The notes under the pieces: model-generated
The model's input: only the letters and a program-made list of their open reading frames with translations
The model's database searches: none
Told to the model about the DNA's origin: nothing
Made by a program: the position numbers and the translations under genes
Part shown: in pieces, positions 19,454 to 64,000 of the stretch
Layout: every line of letters begins with the position of its first letter
How positions within the stretch are numbered: position 1 is the first letter of the stretch
Source of the DNA: Volvox africanus
Taxonomy: Eukaryota; Chlorophyta; Chlorophyceae; Chlamydomonadales; Volvocaceae
Length of the DNA: 64,000 nucleotides
Assembly: GCA_030268105.1 (NCBI GenBank)
Contig: BSDZ01000079.1
Coordinates: forward strand, 2,857,501-2,921,500
Reading direction: 5' to 3'

Positions 19454-19870
19454 CATATTCTTAATTCAAGGTGTTATTTTGTGAGGAGGCGGTCTCAAGC
19501 TTCGAAAGAGACATATGGTTAGCCGGAACGGGGGTACACGCATGATGCCAGGTGCACTCTCATCCCACATATGTATCCAGTCTAAATGATGTCTTGTACT
19601 GTGAAAGAAAATAACATGCTCCGCTACTATATAGCAATCGCTCCAATTATCAACACGCGTCGTGTACTGGAAACGTGTAATTTTTTTGTTCGCCTTTGCG
19701 AATGGACAGTTGGGATGCAAGTGAACCGTGGGTCCTTGTCCTGAACCTGTAAGCGGTCGTCCCAGTGGCAATGCTGCAACGGTATACTGGACAACAAAGG
19801 CAGGCGCAATGGTCCCAATTGGACACGCACAAATGAGGGGCAGACGCGTAATAGCGCAACACAAGCCAAA

Positions 19871-20354
19871 GCGGACTGGCACCCTGACGTCATGGAATAG
19901 AATCAGACTCTCCAAACCATATGCAGCTATCCTATGGTCCCGGAAGCCATCAACATAATCCAACAAACAGTTAGCCGCAAACCCTGTTGCATGTCAAGCG
20001 CCTCCCAATGTCCGCACCCCAGCAAACAGCCCTATCATCCACAACTAATAGAGTTCATCCAGTTTAAATTTTAGTCCTAGTCCCTATCCTATGGTGATGT
20101 GGTCGAAATTCAGCGGACTGGCACCCTGACGTCATGGAATAGAATCAGACTCTCCAAACCATATGCAGCTATCCTATGGTCCCGGAAGCCATCAACATAA
20201 TCCAACAAACAGTTAGCCGCAAACCCTGTTGCATGTCAAGCGCCTCCCAATGTCCGCACCCCAGCAAACAGCCCTATCATCCACAACTAATAGAGTTCTT
20301 TCAGTTTAAATTTTAGTCCTAGTCCCTATCCTATGGTGATGTGGTCGAAATTCA
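19871..20354. repeat. Two tandem copies of a 242-bp unit
   Basis: Bases 19871-20112 and 20113-20354 are the same 242-bp unit head to tail, beginning GCGGACTGGCACCCTGACG and ending GGTCGAAATTCA. The only differences I see are a few bases near the end (TTCATCCAG against TTCTTTCAG). The unit has no long open frame and no obvious terminal inverted repeat. The near identity indicates a recent tandem duplication or a two-copy satellite. The remaining sequence between 19213 and 20677 shows nothing else I can name. Confidence 0.92.
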
Positions 20355-20677
20355 CCGACCTGTGCTCTAAGAGAGCCGGCGGCATCTATTCGCCACGAGA
20401 CGTCCCCTGAACCACAGCCGGGTGCAGGCAGCATGCTGACGATCTGTGGGCCGGTACCTTGAGCAGCCGCTCACGAGCGCTTCCTTTTAGGCCCCAAGCT
20501 AAGCAGTGCTGTTCAGATCCTTCATCGGCAATGGTATGAATGCACTGCGTAGGCAAAGACACGTCGTTCCAGCAGCAACCTACCAAACGCCGCCCCCACC
20601 TACTGCCGCACAGCACGGCCGCCGAATGTATGCCACCCGGCATGATATGTGCTGTCCTTAAAACAGGCGACGGCTGC

Positions 20678-26466: not shown

Positions 26467-28118
26467 TCAAGCATTTGTTGCATCACCCGGCTGCACGTCA
26501 CTGCTGTCGCCTCCGCTTCCACCTCCAGCAACAACGGCACTGCGACAGTCTTTGTAGGGCTCAATGACTACGTCGAAAACAGCTGAGTAGTCACAATCCT
26601 GCAGTCCTTTGGCCATGGCGTTGGAAATGATGGCTGATAGGGCCGTCTGCACTCCAGTGTCCAGCCCCGCAGCCGCAGCCTCATTCTCAAACAGCCGTAC
26701 GTCCTTCAGCAAGTGCTGCAACAGGAAATATGGATGTATCAAAACATAACTGTATAGGCTGGTTTGCTGTGAAGGAGGGGTGGAAGCTGAGCGACATGGC
26801 AAGGCTGTCTACGGCGCAAGCAGGAGACAGAACAGCCACGGGTCAAACAGAACCTTCGTCGCCCGAGCACCGGCCTGAGGGGAACAGGTGCTGCGGATGC
26901 GGCGATCGCCCAGGCGGTGCGGATGCTGGAAGCGCCTCATACAAGCGAGGAAGTGTGCAAAGCGCCGGATGTGACCCAGGTACGTTTGCCCACCTTGGTT
27001 GGGAAATTCGCCGCCCCGTAATCCCGGTCCAGCATCTTCTGAAGCTTCTTGTCGTACGTGGGCGCGTACAGCGCCGAGGCACGCAGGATGCTCATGAATT
27101 TGTCGACCGGAGCGCCGCTGCGCTGAACTAGACCCAGCGAGGTGGAGAAGCCGATCTATGACATGAAAGGCCGCAAGCGTGCGCAGGAAAGCATGGCGCT
27201 TCATGACCCAGGTTACGGCAAGACCCATCGAGAAGCACGGCCAAGACAACCAGTGGCCTCCATGTAGTTCATCGTGGACCTGCCAGGACTCACGGACAGG
27301 GGGCAGGTGGTCACTGCAATCCCTGTCCCAAGCAGATGATGCTGCCGCTCCGTCACCGCCCGCCACAACTCACCGTAAGTGACGCGATAAGTTGGTTGAG
27401 GGCCAGCTTGACGGCAGCTGCCGTACCGACCGGTCCGATGTAATGGATGTTAGGCTCCTGACCCAGCGTGCGGAGCAGCGACTACACGGGGCCATCCGAA
27501 TCGTCCCGTGGGTCGGTGTCTGCCCCAACCATGATGAGCAGGGTCCCCTTCTCCGCCTCAGGCTGGCTGCCCAGCACGGGCGCCTCGATGTAGCGACCAC
27601 CCGCGGCGGCCACCTCGGCAGCAAGGGCGGACGACTCCTTGGGGCCTGGAGAAAGGGCAAAGAGGAGGCCTTTTGCTGGCAGCACTGACCCCCATAGCTG
27701 CTCTCAACAGCCCACGGCCGTCGCGGTTTCTGCAGTCCCACATAACAGACAAGCGTAATAATCCCCTGCTACTTATACCATGAAAGAAATGACCCAAATC
27801 GCACAGTGAAAAAGCAAATACCCTAACGGTACCTATGGTTCCCATTTGCAAGACTTCCTTCCCCGACACCAGTTCCTTTGTGACAGGGTCGCTGAGCAAA
27901 ACATCCCGAATGGCGTGAGCGTCTGAGAGCATGAGAAGAATAACATTTGCTCCCCGCACTGCGTCCGCTGTTGTCGTGCAAGGTCTAACGCCTGCCTCTG
28001 CAAGCTCGAGGGCTTTCTCCGGAGTTCTATTCCACGCTCGGATATGGTTGCCACAGGATACCAGTCTTTTACATATTTTGGCTCCCATGAGGCCGGTTCC
28101 AAGGACAGCAACCTCCAT
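26467..28118 (-). pseudogene. GLYR: GLYR-type beta-hydroxyacid dehydrogenase, copy A, with in-frame stop
   Basis: Four exons keep phase: 28118-27833, 27645-27374, 27155-26994, 26715-26467, 323 codons. It starts directly with the Rossmann motif MEVAVLGTGLMG, so no transit peptide: a cytosolic form, like plant GLYR1 (NADPH-dependent glyoxylate/succinic-semialdehyde reductase). Family features are LLMLSDAHAIRDVL, GGRYIEAPVLGSQPEAEKG, the catalytic-lysine region GTAAAVKLALNQ and the tail DYSAVFDVV. In exon 2 a TAG at 27484-27482 replaces the tryptophan codon TGG found in copy B (49988-52128), about 155 codons in, before the catalytic lysine. All other exons are open. Either this copy is a recent pseudogene, this is an allele or assembly error, or the stop is bypassed. 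Bases 26657-27667 are nearly identical to copy B, introns included. It is divergent to SEC5. Confidence 0.8.
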
Positions 28119-42375: not shown

Positions 42376-45300
42376 CCGACACCCGAAGCGCCAGAAGCCA
42401 TCCAGGCCATCTTGAAGCTTACCAGGAAGGGCCGCGTCAACTGCACGCAGGGGAGAAACCATGCTTCTGCTTCGCATGACCCTTCAGTGAACGGGATTTC
42501 CCGGACGTCGCCATCATCAATAGCTACTGCGGGTGCAGTGGTGGACCCTCTCAAATCAAGCTATTTCACGGGGTCTGCTACAACCAATCGTTACCCTGAA
42601 TGCCGTACCACCGGCACTATCCTTCAAAACACTGCAGCGGCCATCGCCACGTACGCGTCCGGTCCCGAAACCAAATCCAGGAATGAATTTGGATCCAAAT
42701 CCACTCCACTACAGGCATCTTTGCAACCCTCCACCTCTCCCTTCCCCACCCCGGCCGAGGCAGCCCGCAATAAAGCCCTCGGGTCTCCACGGGTCTTTGA
42801 GGCTCGGTTTAGTGGCAGCAGCCTGAAAGCTCCCGTAGGTCTCAGCCGCTGCACCATTGTGGAGGATGCGCCCTTCCCCCCACCCAACACGCAGGTGACA
42901 CGTGTGGCAAGGCAGCCGTGCTGCACTCCTTTGCTGCTGCGATTGCCAAAGGAAGCCATTGCGCCGGGCCCCGCGGTGCTGTTCTGTGCTTGCCTATTTA
43001 AGTGTTCAGGTTGTTGGCCCACCAGTCCAAGGGCGCCTGTTACGGCAGCCCACACTGACAGGGCCTCGCAAATTGCGGACACGGCCTTGCATTGTTGACA
43101 CGCTCCACACAACGTTTCACCACACGCAATGAGTGGACGCTCGCTGTTTGCCATGTTGCCACTGGCTCATGGACCTCTGACAGCCCTCTCTCCTATCCCC
43201 CCTGTTAACCCGGGGCTCTTTTCTTGCCATGACAATGCACCCGTGTCTTGCCAACTGGCACTACTAGGATGCATGTGCACCACGCTGCACCGCACCGCGT
43301 CACAAATTTCGTACTACGTACCACTACGTGACGTACTGCGCCGTGTCGCACCGTGTCGGCCCATTCCTCGCACCTCCAGGTGGTGATGGAGCTGCACGAG
43401 AAGACGCTGCGGGTGGGCGGTCGGCGGCTGCGATACCGGGGGTACCGCCCGGCCGACCGCACCCTGCCACTGCTGCTGCAGGCACCGGTGGGACCCCCTG
43501 GCTTGTTCACTGCTGGACAATCACCCTTCGTGGACGTCCGTGGGGGCCGCAACGTCCACTACTGCTACAGCCACACACAGAACCTGCTTGCGTATGGGCC
43601 AGGCACCACCTGCAGCACTAGGAACCCTCCTTACCCGCCCACCCAATCTGACCCTCACCAGCCTGATGTACTGCCCGCTTCCCTGGTTGCTAATTGCGCG
43701 GGGATGGCAGTGGGAACAGGGCCCCCTGCACCAGCAGCAACAGTCGCTAGGAGTAGCCGCCCCTTACCCGCTTCGCCCCACCTCACAGCACCTTACCCAT
43801 CGGGTGCCACTGCAACGCCTAGCCACGTGAACAGCTACGAGCCCCCCATTCACATGCATCCTCAAAACAACCTTAACCGCCACAACCATCATAATTACCA
43901 GGATAGCCGCCATAGCCTCAGCCTTAGCATCAAGGTCCCGTGGGCGCAGCCATCGGATTTGCCAGCCGGCGGTGGCGGCTTGCTCGAATCCCTGAACGAG
44001 GCGCTGGCCAGCGGCTCCGGTTACATGGTGGTCGGGGCTGTGGTGAGGCCGGGATGCATACTGCTGCAAGTGGACCTCATGGCGGCCAGTGAGACTGGTC
44101 CCGACTTGCTGCGAGGTGTCGACGGCGTTACGACGGAGGTACGCCGTCGCTGCGGACCTGATGGTGCTGTCGCCGTTGGTGACGGCGGCGGCGGCGGTGG
44201 CGGCGGCGAGCTGGCAGCGCAGCTGGCGTACCACGTTGGACTGGTGGCGCCGACGCCCCCCGATGGCAGTGAGGTGCTCGTTAGTCTCGACAGGCGCCTG
44301 TCGTACTCTTTTACTTATGACGCGGCTGCGGCGGCATGGTCGGCCACTCAACTGACCTCGGACGGCGGTGTCTCCGGAGCTGAGGGTATCGGAGCACACG
44401 CGACACAGATGTGCCGTCTGCAGGGACCGTACGGCATACGGCTTCGGCCTACACGTGCAGCTCTCGCTGTACCGGCGGCTGCAGAGAAGGTGGAATCGGC
44501 CCCCATGCTTCTGGTGAGTCTGCAATTGGAGGTGGCGGAAGAGGAGGTGGCGACTGAACTGGCAGGGCATTTGCAGCCGCTGCTGCATTCAGCATCAGCT
44601 CTGCAGCCGCAGCCGCCGCCGCAGCCACCCCAGCAGGAGCCGCGCCACGGCAGTTTGGAGGGCTGGCAGCTCGTGGCGAACTGCACGGGACGCAGCCTTC
44701 CAGTGTGCGTGTTGCGGGTAAGCGGTTTGTCTGTTTTTTGGTAGAGGCGGCTGGCAGTTGTTCTCCAGTGGGATGGTACGTGTCATCTGCCGTACGACGT
44801 AACCGTACTCCCCAGGTGGTCTGCCGCCCTGTAAGGCCCTTCTGGAAGACATTCCGCATCTTCTTATACCATGCACATTAAACCTTTTGCCGGGGCCTAC
44901 CATTGTGTTACCGTAAGAGGTGCAAGCTGGAGCATTGTCACTGATGAGAAAACAGCAAGCGCCTTACCAAGTTGCCGCGACTTCCTGGTTGCTCCCCATT
45001 TGTCCGCCGTACCAAAGGTCATTGGCCCTAGCCGCGGTGTGGACAGTACTGTGGGCTTCGCAAATCCGGTAAGTGAGCCAACAGCGATGGTAGGGGAGCA
45101 AAATGCCGCTGCCGCCACTGCGCTCATTGCCACTGGGGGCAAATGCGACGCTCATGCGGCTACAGCTGCCGCTGCAATGTGCCCGACTGCGGGCATCTCT
45201 ACGACTCGAGCCGCTGGTACTGCAGGTGCCGCCGCTGCCGGCACTCGTCCGGTGGTTTATGTGGATGTTGGTGTCCTGGGCGCCCGCGAGGCGGTTGAGA

Positions 45301-48300
45301 GTGCCTCATGCCGCCTGGCAGTGTTGTCCGTCGAGCTGTGGTACGGTATGCAGGAGGTTGCACAAGTGCCGATCATGCTCGTCCATGAGTCCGTTGCGTT
45401 ATCGCCGTACCCGGCGGGTCCGTGCCAGCGATCAAGTGCCGCTAGAAATGCATCGGGCGATGCGGATGCGGATGCGGATGCGGATGCGGATGCGGATGCG
45501 GATGCGGATGCGGATGCGGATGCTTGTCACGACGGCGGCGTGGCCGCTCCGAAAGCACCGGAGGAGTGCGCGCTTGCGGCTGACTCATGCTGTCCTGTCC
45601 CGGAAACACCAGCTGGCATTGCGCCCGGCACCAGCACCGCCGATGATGTCGTGACGGCAATTGTGGAGGAGCTGAACGGGCTGGTGACGGCGGCGGGGTT
45701 TGCCGGCACATTCCCGTCGTCTTTGAAGCAGGAGGAGGAGGAAGAGGTGGAGGAAGAAGAGAATTGCGTACGGCAAATGTTCACAGACCTTGGCGTTCTG
45801 GAGCTGTTCACTGCGTCGCAAGTACGGCGCACGGGGCCAGCCATACAGGAACAGCAGATAGGTGGCGGCGGCGGCGGCGCCGCCGCCATCGACGCTGCTG
45901 CCGGTGGCGAGTGGTCATCAGAATTTGACGTCATCAGCTTTACGGCAGCGGACGCCGTGGACCTGGAGGGGTTGCCGCCGCCGCCGCCGTCGCCGCCGCC
46001 GCCGCCGCAGCACCACCACCACCAGTACCAGCAGGGCCCGGAGGAGGAACAAGGTGGCCTGGTGAAAAGGAAACCGAAAGCGGCGGCAGCGACGGCGGCG
46101 CTGTTGTTGTCCGGTAGCCTCGATCTGTCCTGTCCGCTCCAACGGCTGATGGAACGCCCGGACCCGCAGCTAAGGCAATCCATGCTGCTGATCGGCGCAA
46201 ACCTGCTTTCGTTTACCATACTTCATGGCCTGCCGTGCACCGCCAGTGCCATTCGAAAGATGCTGGCAGTGCTGGGGTGCGGACTGGCGGAAGCTGATGA
46301 GCTATCGGCCGCCGCCGCTGGTGCCAGTAAGGAGGATGTATTCGTTGGGGAGCTCCTTCCCGCCGGTGGAGGTACTGCTCCAACTGATCACTTGTGTGCG
46401 ACACCCGAATGGGACGATAGCGGCAAGAACGGGCTGCCGCTGACACACCTTGCCGTTCTGTCCGGAAACATAAATGTCGTACGTATGGTTCTGAAATGGG
46501 CGGCGGAGGAGGGTCTCGGATCAGAGTGGGTGATGCGGCGCTACCGGGGCCGTTCGCCGCTGCAGTTAGCGATGGCGGCACTGGTGGCTGCAAATCTTGG
46601 CACCGCCGGCGGAGGTGCCGGTGGTGCGGGCGGGCATGTTGAATACCTGGCACAGCTCAGACAGCTGCTGTCCCCACAAGGCGCCGTACCGCATTTCCAG
46701 CAGGATAGTGATGCGGGTGGCAGCGCCGGCAGCGCGGAGGCCGGCATCTCGGAGCTTCAAGTAGACGAGGACCTCACGGTGTTCGCGGCGGCCATGACGG
46801 CTTCTCCTCGTACCATCAGTTGTTCCCAGGGTATCAACGATGTCGACAAACCTAGCGATGGTGGTGGTGGCGGCAAGGCAGTTCATGCCTATGGGTCAGA
46901 CTCTGCTGCTGCCTACGCCGCTACCTCGCGTGCCGCTAACACCCACAGCGCCCGCATTGGCTCTCACCTCCCCGGGTGGCACCGCCAGCGCCACCCCCTG
47001 CTGGTGTGCCTGTTAGGCTACAGCGACCTCGCCACCGAAGCGCAATACCAGCAGTTCGTGGTGCCGTACGATGTGCACGTGGCGTCGTACTGGATCCCGC
47101 TCATGTGCTTCCTCCTGGCATGCGCATTGCTGAGGCTAATACTGCGAAGCCGTAGCGGCGCGGATCCGTCGGAGGCTCCCGTGGCGGTCCTGTTTGCCTT
47201 GCCGTATGTGGTGCTGGCTGTGTGCCTCAAGCTGCGACCGTAAGTTGGCCGCACGCGTGGAGCTGAGTCGGAATGAGCGGGCAACGTTTTGTCGTTTTAT
47301 TCAACCAACTTGATATGCTCACCAAAACCAAAGTGTGGTTTCTCAACTCAATGACATCAGGACACGCTTTGGAGGTCCTCCTTTATCTCCGTTTACAAAA
47401 TCTTCCTCATAATCGCCATCATCGTGATCAATAAATTAGAACTTGTGTTTTAACTAATTAAATCGGTCCCGGTGCAACGGTGTTTCCGTTAGGGTAACTC
47501 CCAACTGTCTACCCTTACCAGCTTTCATCCTGCAGCGAATCCAGTAACGAATATTGCAAAAGACGAGACGGAAGTACGACTCCCTCCTAGGGTTTGCACG
47601 TTCCTACAGGTCGTACTGACGCCCACGCGCCCCGCTATCGCCTGCAGGACGCTGGTCCACTGCCAGCTTCCCCGCTGGTGGCTGCTGTGCGGGGCGGCGC
47701 GCATGTGCATCAAGTGGCCCTTATGCTCCTGCGGGCTGTTGGCCACGCCGCCCTCATTGCTGCGCTACACTCGGTCAGGAGTGACATTGGTCACGAGCAC
47801 GTTGCTACCGGGGCTCTGCGAGAGGGTACGTATAAGGCGGGACGGTGGTGGTGGTGGCGGGAGGGACGACGGGTTGTTGTAGGGGCCGTTGAAGGCGGAA
47901 GGCCCCGGCACAGAGAGAGGGAGAAGGAGAGAGGGAGCCAGGATGGGGCTGTCAGGATGGGCGCCCAGTGCTGCGCGTCAACGCGCATCATGGAGGCGGG
48001 GGCGGTGAGTCAGGTGTTACGTTTTGCCAATGCCCATGCCCATATACTATCTCAACTCATTCTTCAACCCCCGAACGCCCTCCCCAACAGGTCCCCGGCG
48101 TTCTCGGCCTGTTGCTGCGCCTTATGGACACAGCTGTCCATTTCCACTTCGTTCTGCACGCCGGCTTAGCTCCTGGCGTCGGAGCCGCGGTCCTGCACTC
48201 GCTGCTGCGTGCCGCCGTGTTTGTCGGGGCTGCACTCGCAGTTGAGCTGCATTACAGGGCGAGCTTCGAGGCAGCGATGGGGGTCGCAGCCTCGGCCTCG

Positions 48301-48420
48301 GCCTCCGCGGCGGCATCTGCCACAGCTGTTGGGGGCCCCCGGGTGGAGGTGTCAGTGTCTCCGCCTAGGGGGAGATGGCGCCCGCGCAGACCCACTCCAT
48401 CCACCCGTAACGCTTACTGA
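42376..48420 (+). CDS. SPL (SBP-family) protein C-terminal region with membrane segments; SBP domain not seen, 5' end unresolved
   Basis: In-phase exons: 42376-42894 (start uncertain), 43380-44717, a long exon from about 44871 or just after to 47239, 47648-47825, 48091-48420 (TGA). The join after 44717 is unresolved. Family evidence is the conserved C-terminal part of SPL1/SPL7-type proteins: GYMVVGAVVRPGCILLQVDL (plants: EGYIRPGCTILTVFV), VYVDVGVLG with QVPIMLVHESV (plants: FVEVENMFG..VPILV), and an ankyrin-like LTHLAVLSGNINVVRMVLKW with GRSPLQLAMAAL. The end holds several hydrophobic segments: WIPLMCFLLACALLRLIL, VAVLFALPYVVLAVCL, a Cys/Trp-rich one near 47690, and two in the last exon (VPGVLGLLLRLMDTAVHF, LRAAVFVGAALAV), so it is polytopic, whereas plant SPLs have at most one. 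It also carries an (Asp-Ala)n tract and Gln/His/Pro runs. With an SBP domain it would be a transcription factor (compare CRR1); without one it is a membrane protein of unknown role. Confidence 0.65.
45459..45522 (+). repeat. (GATGCG)n hexanucleotide repeat coding for (Asp-Ala)n
   Basis: About ten and a half copies of GATGCG in frame inside the SPL-like gene give an alternating Asp-Ala run. The uninterrupted hexamer suggests it is young and length-variable. The frame is kept by any change in copy number. Confidence 0.95.
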
Positions 48421-48593
48421 TACGGTGGCTTGGGGAGCTCCAGGGTGGGAAGTTTTCTCATCCTTATGAGTCCCCTTTTGAGTCCCCTGTTGGCCAACCG
48501 TTGGTGAGCTGGACAACCTGATGCTGGTCCCCGGGTCGATGAGCTGGGTCAGTTGCAACCCGAAACACACGAGGTGCCCGCCTGTACGCCGGG

Positions 48594-48598
48594 TGTAA
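48594..48598 (+). terminator. TGTAA polyadenylation motif of the SPL-like gene
   Basis: The motif lies 174 bases after the TGA at 48420, the expected distance for a volvocine 3' untranslated region. The match is only five bases. Confidence 0.35.
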
Positions 48599-49040
48599 GC
48601 GGCTGATGATTGGGATATGTGGGCAATCAGGCAGAAAACAAGTATGCCGTATATGCAAGAAAAAGATTTGCGGTAAGGTCCCCCCGGTGCGGGACATCCA
48701 AGAGAGATCAAACAGAAGCCCTCATAGATCCGAACGGTCACGAGCTGCAATTAACGGAATCATCGCATCATCAATCATCAGGTCCAACATCCTGGCGCGA
48801 ATGAAGCGTACGACTGTGTGTCGAAACAACGGAACAACAGGGAGCTGGGACAGCCTCACTTCGCCCCATTTACATGTGCCGCTGGAGCGCTGTAGTTGTT
48901 AACGTGGCGGTCTCCAGTGTATTCCTTATTCGCTCGTCTGTGGGACGGAGGCTTCCTTTTTTTACTGATGGAAGTTTGAACGCCATCATGTCGCGCTCTG
49001 GGCAAGATGGTTAGATGATGCTTCGGCGGTATGACACACA

Positions 49041-49987: not shown

Positions 49988-52128
49988 ATGAAGATGAGTC
50001 AAAGCTGGGTGCTGCAGAAAGCTGTTTTGCGGCCTTGTGTGCCTGACTCCAAGCGGCGTTCCTTGACATCTATTGCGATCAACCGGCGCGGTGGTTTGAA
50101 ATGTTTTCGCTCTACTGAGTTCGGCTTTGGCGCTCAAAACCAGCCCGTTTGGGGGCAAAGATATAAGCCGACGTTGATGCGAGCAGCTGAGACGCTGCAG
50201 GTTGCTAGCACTACCCCTGGAAATCTCGATATTGCAAAGGGCGTATCTGTTGCAGTTATTGGCGTCGGTCTCATGGGTAAGCCCTGCGCTCCAACGGCGA
50301 AGGCATCTGCAACAGGGGATAACTATGCGTGTGTTCTATGTAGGCAACAAGATTGCACGGCGACTGGCGTCTCAAAGCGCAAACGTGCTTGCCTGGAATC
50401 GCAGTGCAGAAAAACTCGCTGCTTTGCCGGAGGCAAGCATTTCCGTATGCTCCACTGTCGCCGATGCGGCAACCGCAGCCAACGTGCTTCTGCTGACCCT
50501 GTCCGATGCCGCAACTATTCGTGAGACCATCTTAAGCGATGACGTCCAGCATCTGTTGGCCGGCAAGATAGTATTGCAAATGGGCACTATTGGTGAGCCG
50601 GGATAACGTTGGGGTCCAGAAAGCGGATTAGTGTGCCGGTCCACGCAAATGGAGGCGCTGAGCGCTGATGTATTCCCAAATTCTAAATCCCTACCCCTGC
50701 TGGGTTCCCTGATGAGAACATACTGGGCGTTGCGCTCCTCTTTGCCCTTTCTCCAGGCCCCAAGGAGTCGTCCGCCCTTGCTGCCGAGGTGGCCTCCGCG
50801 GGTGGTCGCTACATCGAGGCGCCCGTGCTGGGCAGCCAGCCTGAGGTGGAGAAGGGGACCCTGCTCATCATGGTTGGGGCAGACACCGACCCACGGGACG
50901 ATTCGGATGGCCCCGTGTGGCCGCTGCTCCGCGCGCTGGGTCAGGAGCCTAACATCCATTACATCGGACCGGTCGGTACGGCAGCTGCCGTCAAGCTGGC
51001 CCTCAACCAACTTATCGCGTCACTTACGGTGAGTTGTGGCGGGCGGTGACGGAGCGGCAGCATCATCTGCTTGGGACAGGGATTGCAGTGACCACCTGCC
51101 CCCTGTCCGTGAGTCCTGGCAGGTCCACGATGAACTACATGGAGGCCACTGGTTGTCTTGGCCGTGCTTCTCGATGGGTCTTGCCGTAACCTGGGTCATG
51201 AAGCGCCATGCTTTCCTGCGCACGCTTGCGGCCTTTCATGTCATAGATCGGCTTCTCCACCTCGCTGGGTCTAGTTCAGCGCAGCGGCGCTCCGGTCGAC
51301 AAATTCATGAGCATCCTGCGTGCCTCGGCGCTGTACGCGCCCACGTACGACAAGAAGCTTCAGAAGATGCTGGACCGGGATTACGGGGCGGCGAATTTCC
51401 CAACCAAGGTGGGCAAACGTACCTGGGTCACATCCGGCGCTTTGCACACTTCCTCGCTTGTATGAGGCGCTTCCAGCATCCGCATCGCCTGGGAGTAGGC
51501 AGCACCTGTTCCCCTCAGGCCGGTGCTCAGACGATGAAGGTTCTGTTTGACCCGTGGCTGTTCTGTCTCCTGCGTGCGCCGTAGAGAGCCTTGCAACTTC
51601 CACCCCTCCTTCACAGCAAACCAGCCTATACAGTTATGTTTTGATACATCCATATTTCCTGTTGCAGCACTTGCTGAAGGACGTACGGCTGTTTGAGAAT
51701 GAGGCTGCGGCTGCGGGGCTGGACACGCGGTTACTGGCGGCCCTGAAGGCGGTGACACAGGCAAGGCCGACGACCTGGAGAGTTTGGCGAAATGGCTATA
51801 CGGGGGTCCCACGTAGACCGTAGATCTCCGTATTGATATGCGATGGTTGTGGTTCAAGGCGTGAGGGTTGCTGGTAGATATGGGTGTGCGGAGAAAGGGT
51901 TTGAACACAGAAGTTACAGCACAGCTTTGGTGCGAACGTCCACGTCTACGGCGGCAGCAGGAACGACGTCGTCCTTCCCGTCTCTTTCTTTCCTCCCCAC
52001 TGCACTTCCACATTCCCTCTGGGCTGTGCTGCACCCAACAGGATGCTGTGGACCGGGGACTGGCAAACACGGACTATTCGGCAGTCTTTGATGCAGTGGC
52101 GCACCCGGAGGATGTCAAGGAGCAGTGA
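49988..52128 (+). CDS. GLYR: GLYR-type beta-hydroxyacid dehydrogenase, copy B, intact and with N-terminal extension
   Basis: Six exons in phase: 49988-50276, 50344-50592, 50757-51028, 51247-51408, 51668-51760, 52042-52128 (TGA); 383 residues. About 80 residues precede the Rossmann motif VSVAVIGVGLMG; they are basic and rich in hydroxylated residues (SKRRSLTSIAINRRGGLK), so organelle import is likely, as for plant GLYR2. Domain features: LLLTLSDAATIRETIL, GGRYIEAPVLGSQPEVEKG, IGPVGTAAAVKLALNQ with the catalytic lysine, and the tail DYSAVFDAVAH. The family reduces glyoxylate and succinic semialdehyde with NADPH, or related 3-hydroxyacids. The frame is open where copy A has a stop (TGG here). 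The last intron appears to start with GC (CAG|GCAAGG at 51760), which keeps the exact length of copy A. Bases 50735-51726 are nearly identical to copy A on the other strand. Confidence 0.87.
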
Positions 52129-61381: not shown

Positions 61382-64000
61382 GCGTACATGGTGGTCTGCT
61401 CCCAAGTCGTTGGTTATCCCATGGGCACAGGTGTGCGCACGCTCGCTTACAGAGCACAGGCACGACTCTACAGCCGCAGCCGAGCGTTGACGCCTCGATT
61501 GCTGCATCAATTCTTTCCGAAGCAGCGTCAGTAAGTCACGACACTACGGGGAAGCCACCCAGCACCCGGCGACGGGCGGTCGGCGCAGGTGCCAAGCGCT
61601 TCAGTAAGGTCTCCGCGCAGGCGCCGATCACCCCCGAGGACTCGGAAAGCCCACCCGCGGATGACCATGACGTCAGCACGGCCAACAGGGCACTTCGAGC
61701 CGACCTCGAAACGGCCGGCGGCACTGCGGACGATCTTTCAACGGAGCCAGACGAAAGTGGCGCAGTTGTAGCTGTAGCTGTAGCTGGCGTTGACGTAGAA
61801 GCCAGCGCTGCACGTCGCCGAACACGGGGGGCGGTTCCAGTGATGCCTGAACCTGGGGTGCCGGTGCCGGTGCCTGGGTTTGCTGGGGACGTGACGTGTA
61901 ACGATTCCCCCGAGGGCGCCAGTGGGTGGGGCCGAGGGGGCGGAGGCGGTCAAGTGAGCGAGGGCGGAGCAGAGGGAGTCAAAGTGACCCGCGTCATCGC
62001 CGCCGTCACCTCTGCATCGGACGCCGCTGACGAGGCGGCGGCGGCGACGGCGGCAGCTACGGTATTGCCATCAATCGTTAGCAGGGCATCGTTCAGATCA
62101 TCAACTAAAAGTCAGAGCCGCAGCCGGCTCTTTCAAACCGAACCCTCAAAAAGCGACAACGCAGCGTCAGGTGATGATAGCAGTGACGGCGGGGCCAGCA
62201 TCGGTGGTGTCAGTCTTGGACCCGAAAATCTTAGCGCTGCTCGGGCCCGGGTCTTGCAGATAAAGTCGGCGCTGTACCGCAATATGCGCTCCGAAACCAG
62301 GACACCTTCCGCTGACACCGTGAGGCTCATCTTCACACCCATGGAGGCGGCAGAGAGAACGATAGCGGTGGCGGAACCGCTGCGGGCGGAACCGCTGTCG
62401 CCTCCACCAACTGTCAGGGAGCGGTTGCTGAGGCCGGCGCCGGCTATGGCTCAGGTGAAGAGGCTTGGTGGCGGCGTGATTGCCGATCCCGACGCTCATA
62501 GGGAGGTGCCCGGGGCCGGACGGCGGCGGGCTGCGGAGATGTGGTCAACACTACGTCCTGGGGAGTGGCGGAGGCGGGAGGGACAGCAGCAGCAGCAGCA
62601 GTGGCGGCGGAGGCGGGGGCAGCAAGAGGAGGGACAGGATTTGGGGGATAGGGAGGAAAGACTAACGGACCATCGACAGCGAGCGTTACGGGTTCGCAAG
62701 GGAGGGGTGAGAGAATCTCGGGATGGGTCAGTGGATGGGTCAGTGGAGGGTTCAGCGTCGCGGCTCCGTGTGATGAAGCCGCTGGAAATGCGGCGATCTC
62801 CGGCAGCGGAGGCGGCAGCTCAGCGCTTCCAGCCCCAAAAGGTTGCTGTCGCTCGGGCAGCAGCTAGTAGGTCGGCGGACCTGGTGGCGGAGGCGGAGAT
62901 CACCCAGAGGCGGCGGACTCGCATGCAAAAGGACAATGAAGAGTTTGCCAGGTACATCGAAGGAATAGCGGCAGAGGTGGAGTCCAAAGGCGACGGACGA
63001 GGTGGTGCTGAACCGGAACACGAAGGGCGGCAGCAGAGGGAGAAATTGTCGCCGTCGCCGCTGGTGGCTAAAGGGCAGCGGCGGGAAGAGGCTGAGGCGA
63101 GGAAAGCACAGAAAATTCAACAGCGGAAACAGCAGCAGCAGGAACAGGCAAACTTATTACGCGACCTTGCCAACATGTTCCGAAGCTTTGCGCGGCAACC
63201 ACAGCCCGCCGCCACAGCGGCAGCGGCAGTGGTGGCGGCCGTGAGCCCGGCCACCGCTGCCGCTGCTGCCGCCGCTACTGCGGCGACGCACACAGGCACT
63301 GCCAAAGAGTATAACACCAGTCGACGCGGCGGAGGCGCGGGCTTCGGACCGTCCAATCCTTTTGCCGGCTTTCTCGGCCTTGGACGAGCAAATGATGTCC
63401 AGCTCATCCTGGAGCCTTTGACGGGGAGGAAGCTGGCGGAGGCGGAGGCTGGTGCAGCGGGAGGCGGCGAGGAGCTGGAGCGGGAGCAGGACCGCGGGGC
63501 CGAGGAGGGCGGTACGCAAGTGAGGAAGGCCAACGCACTTCACGCGCGGCCACTGCCCACCCGCAGTCTGTTGCTGCGTCTCCTACGGCCGATGACGAAG
63601 GCGCGCCTTCCACCGTATACGCGCTCCGTCGGGTTGCGTATCAGCGGCCAGCGGCGGCCGCGGCTACTGCGGCGGCGGGTAGTGGCGCCGGCGGAGGCCC
63701 TGGACCTTGTGGGCGACGGCGCGAGGATGTCGGCGGCGGCGCTGCGTGCACAGCGGCGCCGGACATACTTCTATCGGCAGGTTGCGCCGCAGAGGCGTCA
63801 AGCTGCTCCTGTGACAGCAGAGGATCCACACCAGCAGCAGCAGCATGCCTTGGAAGAGGAGGGACAAGAGGCCACGGTGGGCATTGGGCGGGAAGCGAGT
63901 AAGGTGGAGGCGGCGGCGCCGCTGCCGTCGTGGCCGCAGCCCCGGCTCTATTCATTGTCCGGCAGGAGCTTCGTGGTGAAGCGTCGGGCTCAGTACTCGG
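61382..64000 (+). CDS. Long low-complexity protein of unknown function (runs off right edge)
   Basis: A frame without stop runs from just after a TGA near 61360 to base 64000, over 870 codons. There is no ATG in frame until about 61842, so it is probably an internal exon; acceptors at 61381 (TGTCCAG) or about 61456 (CTTACAG) would fit. The product is rich in Ala, Arg, Gln, Glu and Ser, with a Val-Ala run, a (CAG)6 Gln tract at 62584-62601 and a charged helical part with coiled-coil character (RRREEAEARKAQKIQQRKQQ). More conserved-looking pieces are SNPFAGFLGLGRANDVQLIL, SLLLRLLRPMTKARLPPYTR and RLYSLSGRSFVVKRRAQYS at the edge. No family is recognised. Many minus-strand frames here are GC-skew shadows. 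Confidence 0.6.
62584..62601 (+). repeat. (CAG)6 trinucleotide repeat, coding for Gln
   Basis: Six CAG units in frame in the right-edge gene. Confidence 0.9.

Follow-up and report, generated by a model that had tools for sequence, protein, structure and literature searches.

Excerpts of the reports on the closest described systems tell of paralogs that are homogenised over part or all of their length. The inverted ('palindromic') amylase and Hsp70 pairs of Drosophila are linked paralogs that are more similar within than between species, and homogenisation of amylase is restricted to the coding sequence, with the flanks evolving independently (PMC3924832). The primate red and green opsin genes, ~24 kb apart, undergo partial-gene conversion and retain paralog differences elsewhere (PMC3924837). 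Bacterial RF1 and RF2 are functionally distinct paralogs in which conversion limited to domain 3 occurred twice independently (PMC4530459). Recurrent homogenisation across geological time has been described in prokaryotes, where long-lasting concerted evolution of 26 genes, in most of them for >500 My, is called very rare (PMC6053082).

Here we describe a gene pair, A and B, in a 64,000-nt stretch of the Volvox africanus genome (hereafter the window) that shares features with each of these systems and departs from each. With a probability that we put at about 0.87, the two genes are ancient beta-hydroxyacid dehydrogenase paralogs in which interlocus gene conversion, acting on DNA and without crossover, has homogenised the core time and again, in at least five volvocine lineages independently and between nearly the same borders. 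Amylase converts coding sequence as such, whereas A and B share only the middle of the gene, their coding ends are ~50% identical and B carries a transit-like leader. The opsin duplication is 30–40 My old and a divergence peak is kept in an exon (PMC3924837); in A and B, by contrast, the core converts, and the pair predates a split dated to ~274 My ago. RF1/RF2 comprises two bacterial events in opposite directions (PMC4530459), whereas the A/B pattern is seen in 6/6 species with both genes, at near-identical borders that run through both Pfam domains. The prokaryotic study concerns full-length gene conversion and leaves eukaryotes, as well as conversion of parts of genes, to future work (PMC6053082). 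At the level of titles and abstract openings, we found no report of conversion in the A/B pair.

The two genes lie ~22 kb apart in opposite orientation (Table 1). B differs from A by an additional 5′ intron and an N-terminal extension of ~85 residues that looks transit-like by eye, and its protein is identical to VaNZ11_012378 of V. africanus across 383 residues. B and the A protein of Pleodorina each contain PF03446 and PF14833; these two domains, the GxGxxG motif and the catalytic Lys and Asn (the K170/N174 equivalents are P0001 residues 259/263) assign the pair to the beta-hydroxyacid dehydrogenase superfamily. B shares 85 of 282 aligned residues with 3doj and has 48–53% local identity to the listed cyanobacterial proteins. 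Six active-site residues are named for the Arabidopsis glyoxylate/succinic semialdehyde reductase AtGLYR1 (PMC5399074). B has five of them, with Ser121 replaced by Leu, and thus departs from the GLYR1/GLYR2 active site. GLYR1 and GLYR2 are both reported in C. reinhardtii and V. carteri, and we do not equate them with A and B; the term gene conversion is not used in the available part of that paper (PMC5399074). Of 11 genome matches to the B protein, ten lie in the window; the other lies outside it and has 27% identity, and no third close paralog was seen in this search. Neither A nor B was recovered by a PF14833 profile search of the genome, which hit three other places (two above cut-off); interruption of the domain by introns is the probable cause.

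Elsewhere in the window, a 246-bp head-to-tail duplication (98.8% identity) occupies 19870–20357. GC-rich stretches at 43301–46800, 47601–48600 and 61501–64000 (~64–67% per kb) overlap ORFs of 470, 802 and 880 codons; ten long ORFs, from the 60 longest listed in the window and including these three, had no match in Pfam.

Table 1. Features of the A/B locus, in window coordinates.
Feature	Position	Strand	Basis
Gene A, beta-hydroxyacid dehydrogenase family paralog	26467..28118	minus	gene model, splice sites, homologs P0010, P0013, P0014
Exons of A (n=4), without long N-terminal extension	28118-27833, 27645-27374, 27155-26994, 26715-26467	minus	
Gene B, paralog of A	49988..52128	plus	gene model, splice sites, protein match
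Exons of B (n=6)	49988-50276, 50344-50592, 50757-51028, 51247-51408, 51668-51760, 52042-52128	plus	
Core block attributed to conversion, copy A	26657..27667	minus	self-BLAST, alignment
Core block attributed to conversion, copy B	50735..51726	plus	self-BLAST, alignment
551-bp run of perfect identity to B	26918..27468	minus	alignment
Diverged patch inside the block	26787..26917	minus	alignment
Intron 1 of A, non-homologous part directly outside the 5′ border	27668..27832	minus	alignment, splice sites
Second (matching) intron of B, non-homologous part directly outside the 5′ border	50593..50734	plus	alignment, splice sites
B-specific GC-AG last intron (GCAAGG...ACAG), past the 3′ border; no intron there in A	51761..52041	plus	splice sites
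In-frame stop TAG, codon 150 of A (TGG, Trp, in B)	27482..27484	minus	alignment, gene model

Self-BLAST of the window returned one inverted pair, 26639–27667 (minus) against 50735–51744 (1029 columns, 96.0% identity). Global alignment of the two blocks in Table 1 gave 977 identical bases in 992 ungapped columns, the differences being 15 mismatches and two indels (9 bp and 10 bp). The first-pass annotation had described a ~1-kb near-identical inverted block that includes two introns, set between distinct first and last exons. This description is borne out: both introns occupy matching places in A and B, and 51/94 residues of the 5′ flank and 15/33 of the 3′ flank are identical, as against 160/164 in the core. 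The block takes in the final 22 nt of an intron, reaches to within 62 codons of the stop in A and 39 codons in B, and corresponds to residues 180–344 of B. At the 5′ border, CTCCTCTTTGCCC, identity starts inside the intron, 22 nt upstream of exon 2; at the 3′ border, GGGGCTGGACAC, it ends mid-exon. Borders of just this kind had been claimed, and outside either of them the A/B DNA alignment collapses abruptly. Plotted along the genes, as had been proposed, identity drops in a sharp step at each border from near-identity to old divergence, non-coding sequence included. In the core, coding dS is 0.008 and the sole silent change falls just outside the block, whereas silent sites of the 5′ coding flank are saturated (pS 0.768). 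Near-identity over ~1 kb including introns, beside coding sequence with pS = 0.77, excludes a chance origin. Because introns lie within the near-identical block, homogenisation acts at the DNA level in the window's genome. A DNA search of the whole assembly (141 Mb), which may miss repeats, found matches at the A and B blocks only. Five of the six AtGLYR1 active-site positions (Lys, Asn, Phe, Asp and the Leu that replaces Ser) fall in the core, and the sixth, Thr, lies two residues ahead of its border. As the borders run through both Pfam domains, the block is, by the domains predicted, not a domain unit.

Differences within the block are unevenly spread. The 551-bp perfect run spans exon 2, intron 2, exon 3 and the start of A's intron 3. 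A frame crossing intron and exon had been said to translate identically in the two copies; its A interval, 27366–26930, lies in this run, and the B interval is 51036–51472, ending one base short of the 51473 that had been given. Of the 15 mismatches, 10 fall in the 131-bp diverged patch, as do both indels, and every one of these differences is in intron 3. The remaining five mismatches are in exon 2, and the 551-bp and 130-bp runs adjoining the patch have none. Since the mismatches are clustered, conversion tracts of differing age are probably overlaid in the block; the 551-bp run is probably the youngest, and the patch apparently escaped the last conversion.

Other species were compared as proteins; the window's genome alone informs on orientation, on intron identity and on where exactly the borders lie. 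The alignment comprised the window's A and 18 proteins from the best 120 listed matches of each protein search. A Tetrabaena match (P0016), whose model is without some exons, was excluded, and the B protein of V. africanus JP was trimmed where its model enters an intron. Fragments from V. reticuliferus were used for the identity table and the core and 3′ trees and excluded from site classes and AU tests. The 13-row AU-test trees leave out JP B, Sanguina, Haematococcus and P0012. The JP B model (P0002, Vafri_8378) enters intron 3 and its last exons are missing. Among the matches listed, V. africanus JP had no A protein, and Gonium and Astrephomene had B-type proteins only.

The A/B pair was found in V. 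carteri, Pleodorina, Edaphochlamys and Chlamydomonas, and as fragmentary models in V. reticuliferus. For V. carteri, Pleodorina starrii and Edaphochlamys debaryana, the two genes are listed on contigs of equal length; the A and B locus tags differ by only a few numbers in Pleodorina, Edaphochlamys and V. reticuliferus. Identical residues in the 5′ end, core and 3′ end number 48/93, 164/165 and 14/33 in V. carteri, 50/93, 161/165 and 18/33 in Pleodorina, and 52/94, 162/165 and 16/33 in Edaphochlamys, corresponding to 52–55%, 98–99% and 42–55%. The values for Chlamydomonas are 40/84, 165/168 and 33/33 (48/98/100%); those for V. reticuliferus, which has no 5′ part, are 121/127 and 15/33. Across species with both genes, core identity within a species is thus 95–99%. 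The cores of a species differ at 1 to 6 residues and thus represent separate copies, not one common exon set.

Trees and alignment columns tell the same story. With borders taken from the DNA of the window's genome and applied to five species, diagnostic columns divide into 18 paralog-specific and 0 species-shared in the flanks and 0 and 24 in the core (p = 2.8e-12); 71 flank and 12 core columns fit neither class. Omitting Chlamydomonas gives 34:0 and 0:19, with 51 and 11 mixed columns. The core tree joins A with B of the same species in 5/5 cases, of which four are starred and Pleodorina is moderately supported (74/83). An A clade in the core is rejected (p-AU 2.4e-123, or 3.5e-5 when Chlamydomonas is left out). 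The 5′ tree sets an A clade apart from B (99/100), and all five species pairs are rejected, with p from 0.024 (Edaphochlamys) to 4e-42 (V. carteri). With distant outgroups, support for the A clade drops to 86/78 in the 5′ tree and is 87/79 in the 3′ tree. When V. reticuliferus is included, the window's A and B fall into one V. africanus/V. reticuliferus core clade (95/93) but are not sisters in it, in an order of weak support (61/0), so the two species were counted as one lineage. The volvocine comparison that the first-pass annotation had called for thus groups cores by species and 5′ ends by paralog, a conflict between tract and flank phylogenies, as expected of gene conversion. Paralogs are closer within species in the core and not in the ends, so we call this concerted evolution partial. 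Taken together, the protein comparisons show repeated homogenisation of a core between private ends.

The borders are nearly the same throughout. In five species the last A/B difference ahead of the core lies at residue 88–92 of A and the first species-shared column is 101, and all five have a nine-residue interval in common for the 5′ border. At the 3′ end, species-shared columns stop at 254 and paralog-specific ones start at 261, Chlamydomonas excepted; Edaphochlamys has one extra A/B difference at 258. The 5′ border is crossed in 0/5 species, the flanking intron itself being seen in the window's genome alone. The exonic 3′ border is crossed in 1/6 species, namely Chlamydomonas, where the direction, judged from the tail, is from B to A; the 3′ border would thus be leakier than the 5′ border. 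Chlamydomonas A is known from one source, XP_001692084.1 (P0011); its C-terminal tail follows the B type right up to the stop, which suggests a longer tract converted from B to A. Chlamydomonas reinhardtii has both an A-type and a B-type gene. Because both paralog types occur on both sides of the split between the Chlamydomonas lineage and Goniaceae plus Volvocaceae, dated to ~274 MYA (323–214) (PMC11007952), the duplication predates the Chlamydomonas–Volvox split. This age, the recurrence in at least five lineages and the near-fixed borders are what the comparison adds to the first reading, whose proposal of interlocus conversion between inverted copies is upheld by the step profile, the contrast between core dS and saturated 5′ sites, and the other volvocines.

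We infer that the inverted copies exchange sequence by interlocus gene conversion through non-crossover repair, since 5′ and 3′ types stay coupled: A-type 5′ ends retain A-type 3′ ends in the four full-length species other than Chlamydomonas. The 5′ border would be held by the fast-diverging, non-homologous intron upstream of the core, and the 3′ border by diverged coding sequence downstream of it. Conversion would keep the cores homologous enough for further conversion; the ends would meanwhile drift, or selection would drive them apart. Crossovers between the copies, with inversion flips in place of non-crossover repair, are permitted by the inverted orientation, and even numbers of flips could have occurred. 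Such crossovers swap 3′ ends, however, and this is at odds with the coupling just described; both Chlamydomonas copies have a B tail, as expected of a long conversion and not of a swap. We therefore regard crossover as improbable.

A single recent partial duplication, in which a ~1-kb piece was copied between the genes, or a recent whole duplication whose ends diverged, would suffice for the one near-identical block in the window's genome taken by itself. In both genes, however, the block stands in for the homologous exons with frame and register exactly kept, the ends are old and orthologous across species, as the 5′ A clade attests, and five lineages show the same pattern; moreover, homology-based replacement in register is gene conversion by definition. 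Uniform identity from a recent duplication, named by the first-pass annotation as a result that would speak against conversion, is ruled out by a near-identical core between ancient flanks, and the partial version is highly improbable.

Pilon correction can smooth near-identical repeats, so that an artefact of assembly or polishing (PacBio plus Pilon) might have copied or smoothed the block. The assembly of strain 1101-NZ-11 (141.0 Mbp, 129 contigs, PacBio) was indeed Pilon-corrected with 150-bp reads, and its long-read coverage is ~197x (PMC10291315). Against an artefact, the 15 mismatches and two indels persist, the flanks differ with private exons in frame, and proteins from other species' assemblies show the same pattern. 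An assembly duplication, about which the first-pass annotation had cautioned, is thus very unlikely, and polishing would at most have lengthened the perfect run. Least credible is purifying selection on the catalytic core without conversion: 129/165 classed core columns are constant among the compared A and B copies, but in the window's genome the block contains two introns and its perfect run crosses intron and exon, and the 24 diagnostic core columns separate species and are common to A and B, with 0 separating paralogs.

Two further mechanisms were considered for the conversion itself. RNA-mediated (retro) conversion was rejected on the two introns common to both blocks, which are neither lost nor spared. 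At third codon positions, GC reaches 0.78 in the core, compared with 0.53–0.55 in the 5′ exons of the two genes (Fisher p 5e-5 and 2e-4). We do not claim GC-biased conversion: this contrast is within A and B only, the blocks are at unexceptional percentiles of 1-kb GC within the window (~91st and 89th), in-block introns are barely richer than others (0.56–0.60 vs 0.50–0.56), the B 3′ exons are also fairly rich at third positions (0.69), and GC-biased conversion is described as weak in Chlamydomonas (PMC7186780).

Copy A in the window looks newly broken. Codon 150, a stop in A, is Trp in all 18 other aligned rows. Five codons are altered in exon 2, every one with a change of protein, and in our reading of the alignment against relatives four of the five changes fall on A. 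P0182 (186 aa) matches A's first exon and then continues into intron 1. In V. reticuliferus, A differs from its own B at six core residues. We suggest that A may be failing in the V. africanus/V. reticuliferus clade while conversion still reaches it.

A more far-reaching idea, which we consider rather unlikely, is that A and B form a self-perpetuating module of common core and private ends that has persisted for >~270 My, in which the non-homologous 5′ intron would serve as a recombination firewall and homogenisation would be selected because it preserves a single active site in isoforms at different locations. Partial concerted evolution with fixed borders that has recurred in several eukaryotic lineages from before the Chlamydomonas–Volvox split would amount to a long-running natural experiment on what limits conversion: divergence, introns or selection. 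Full-length gene trees of such pairs blend two histories and would misdate this duplication in each species.
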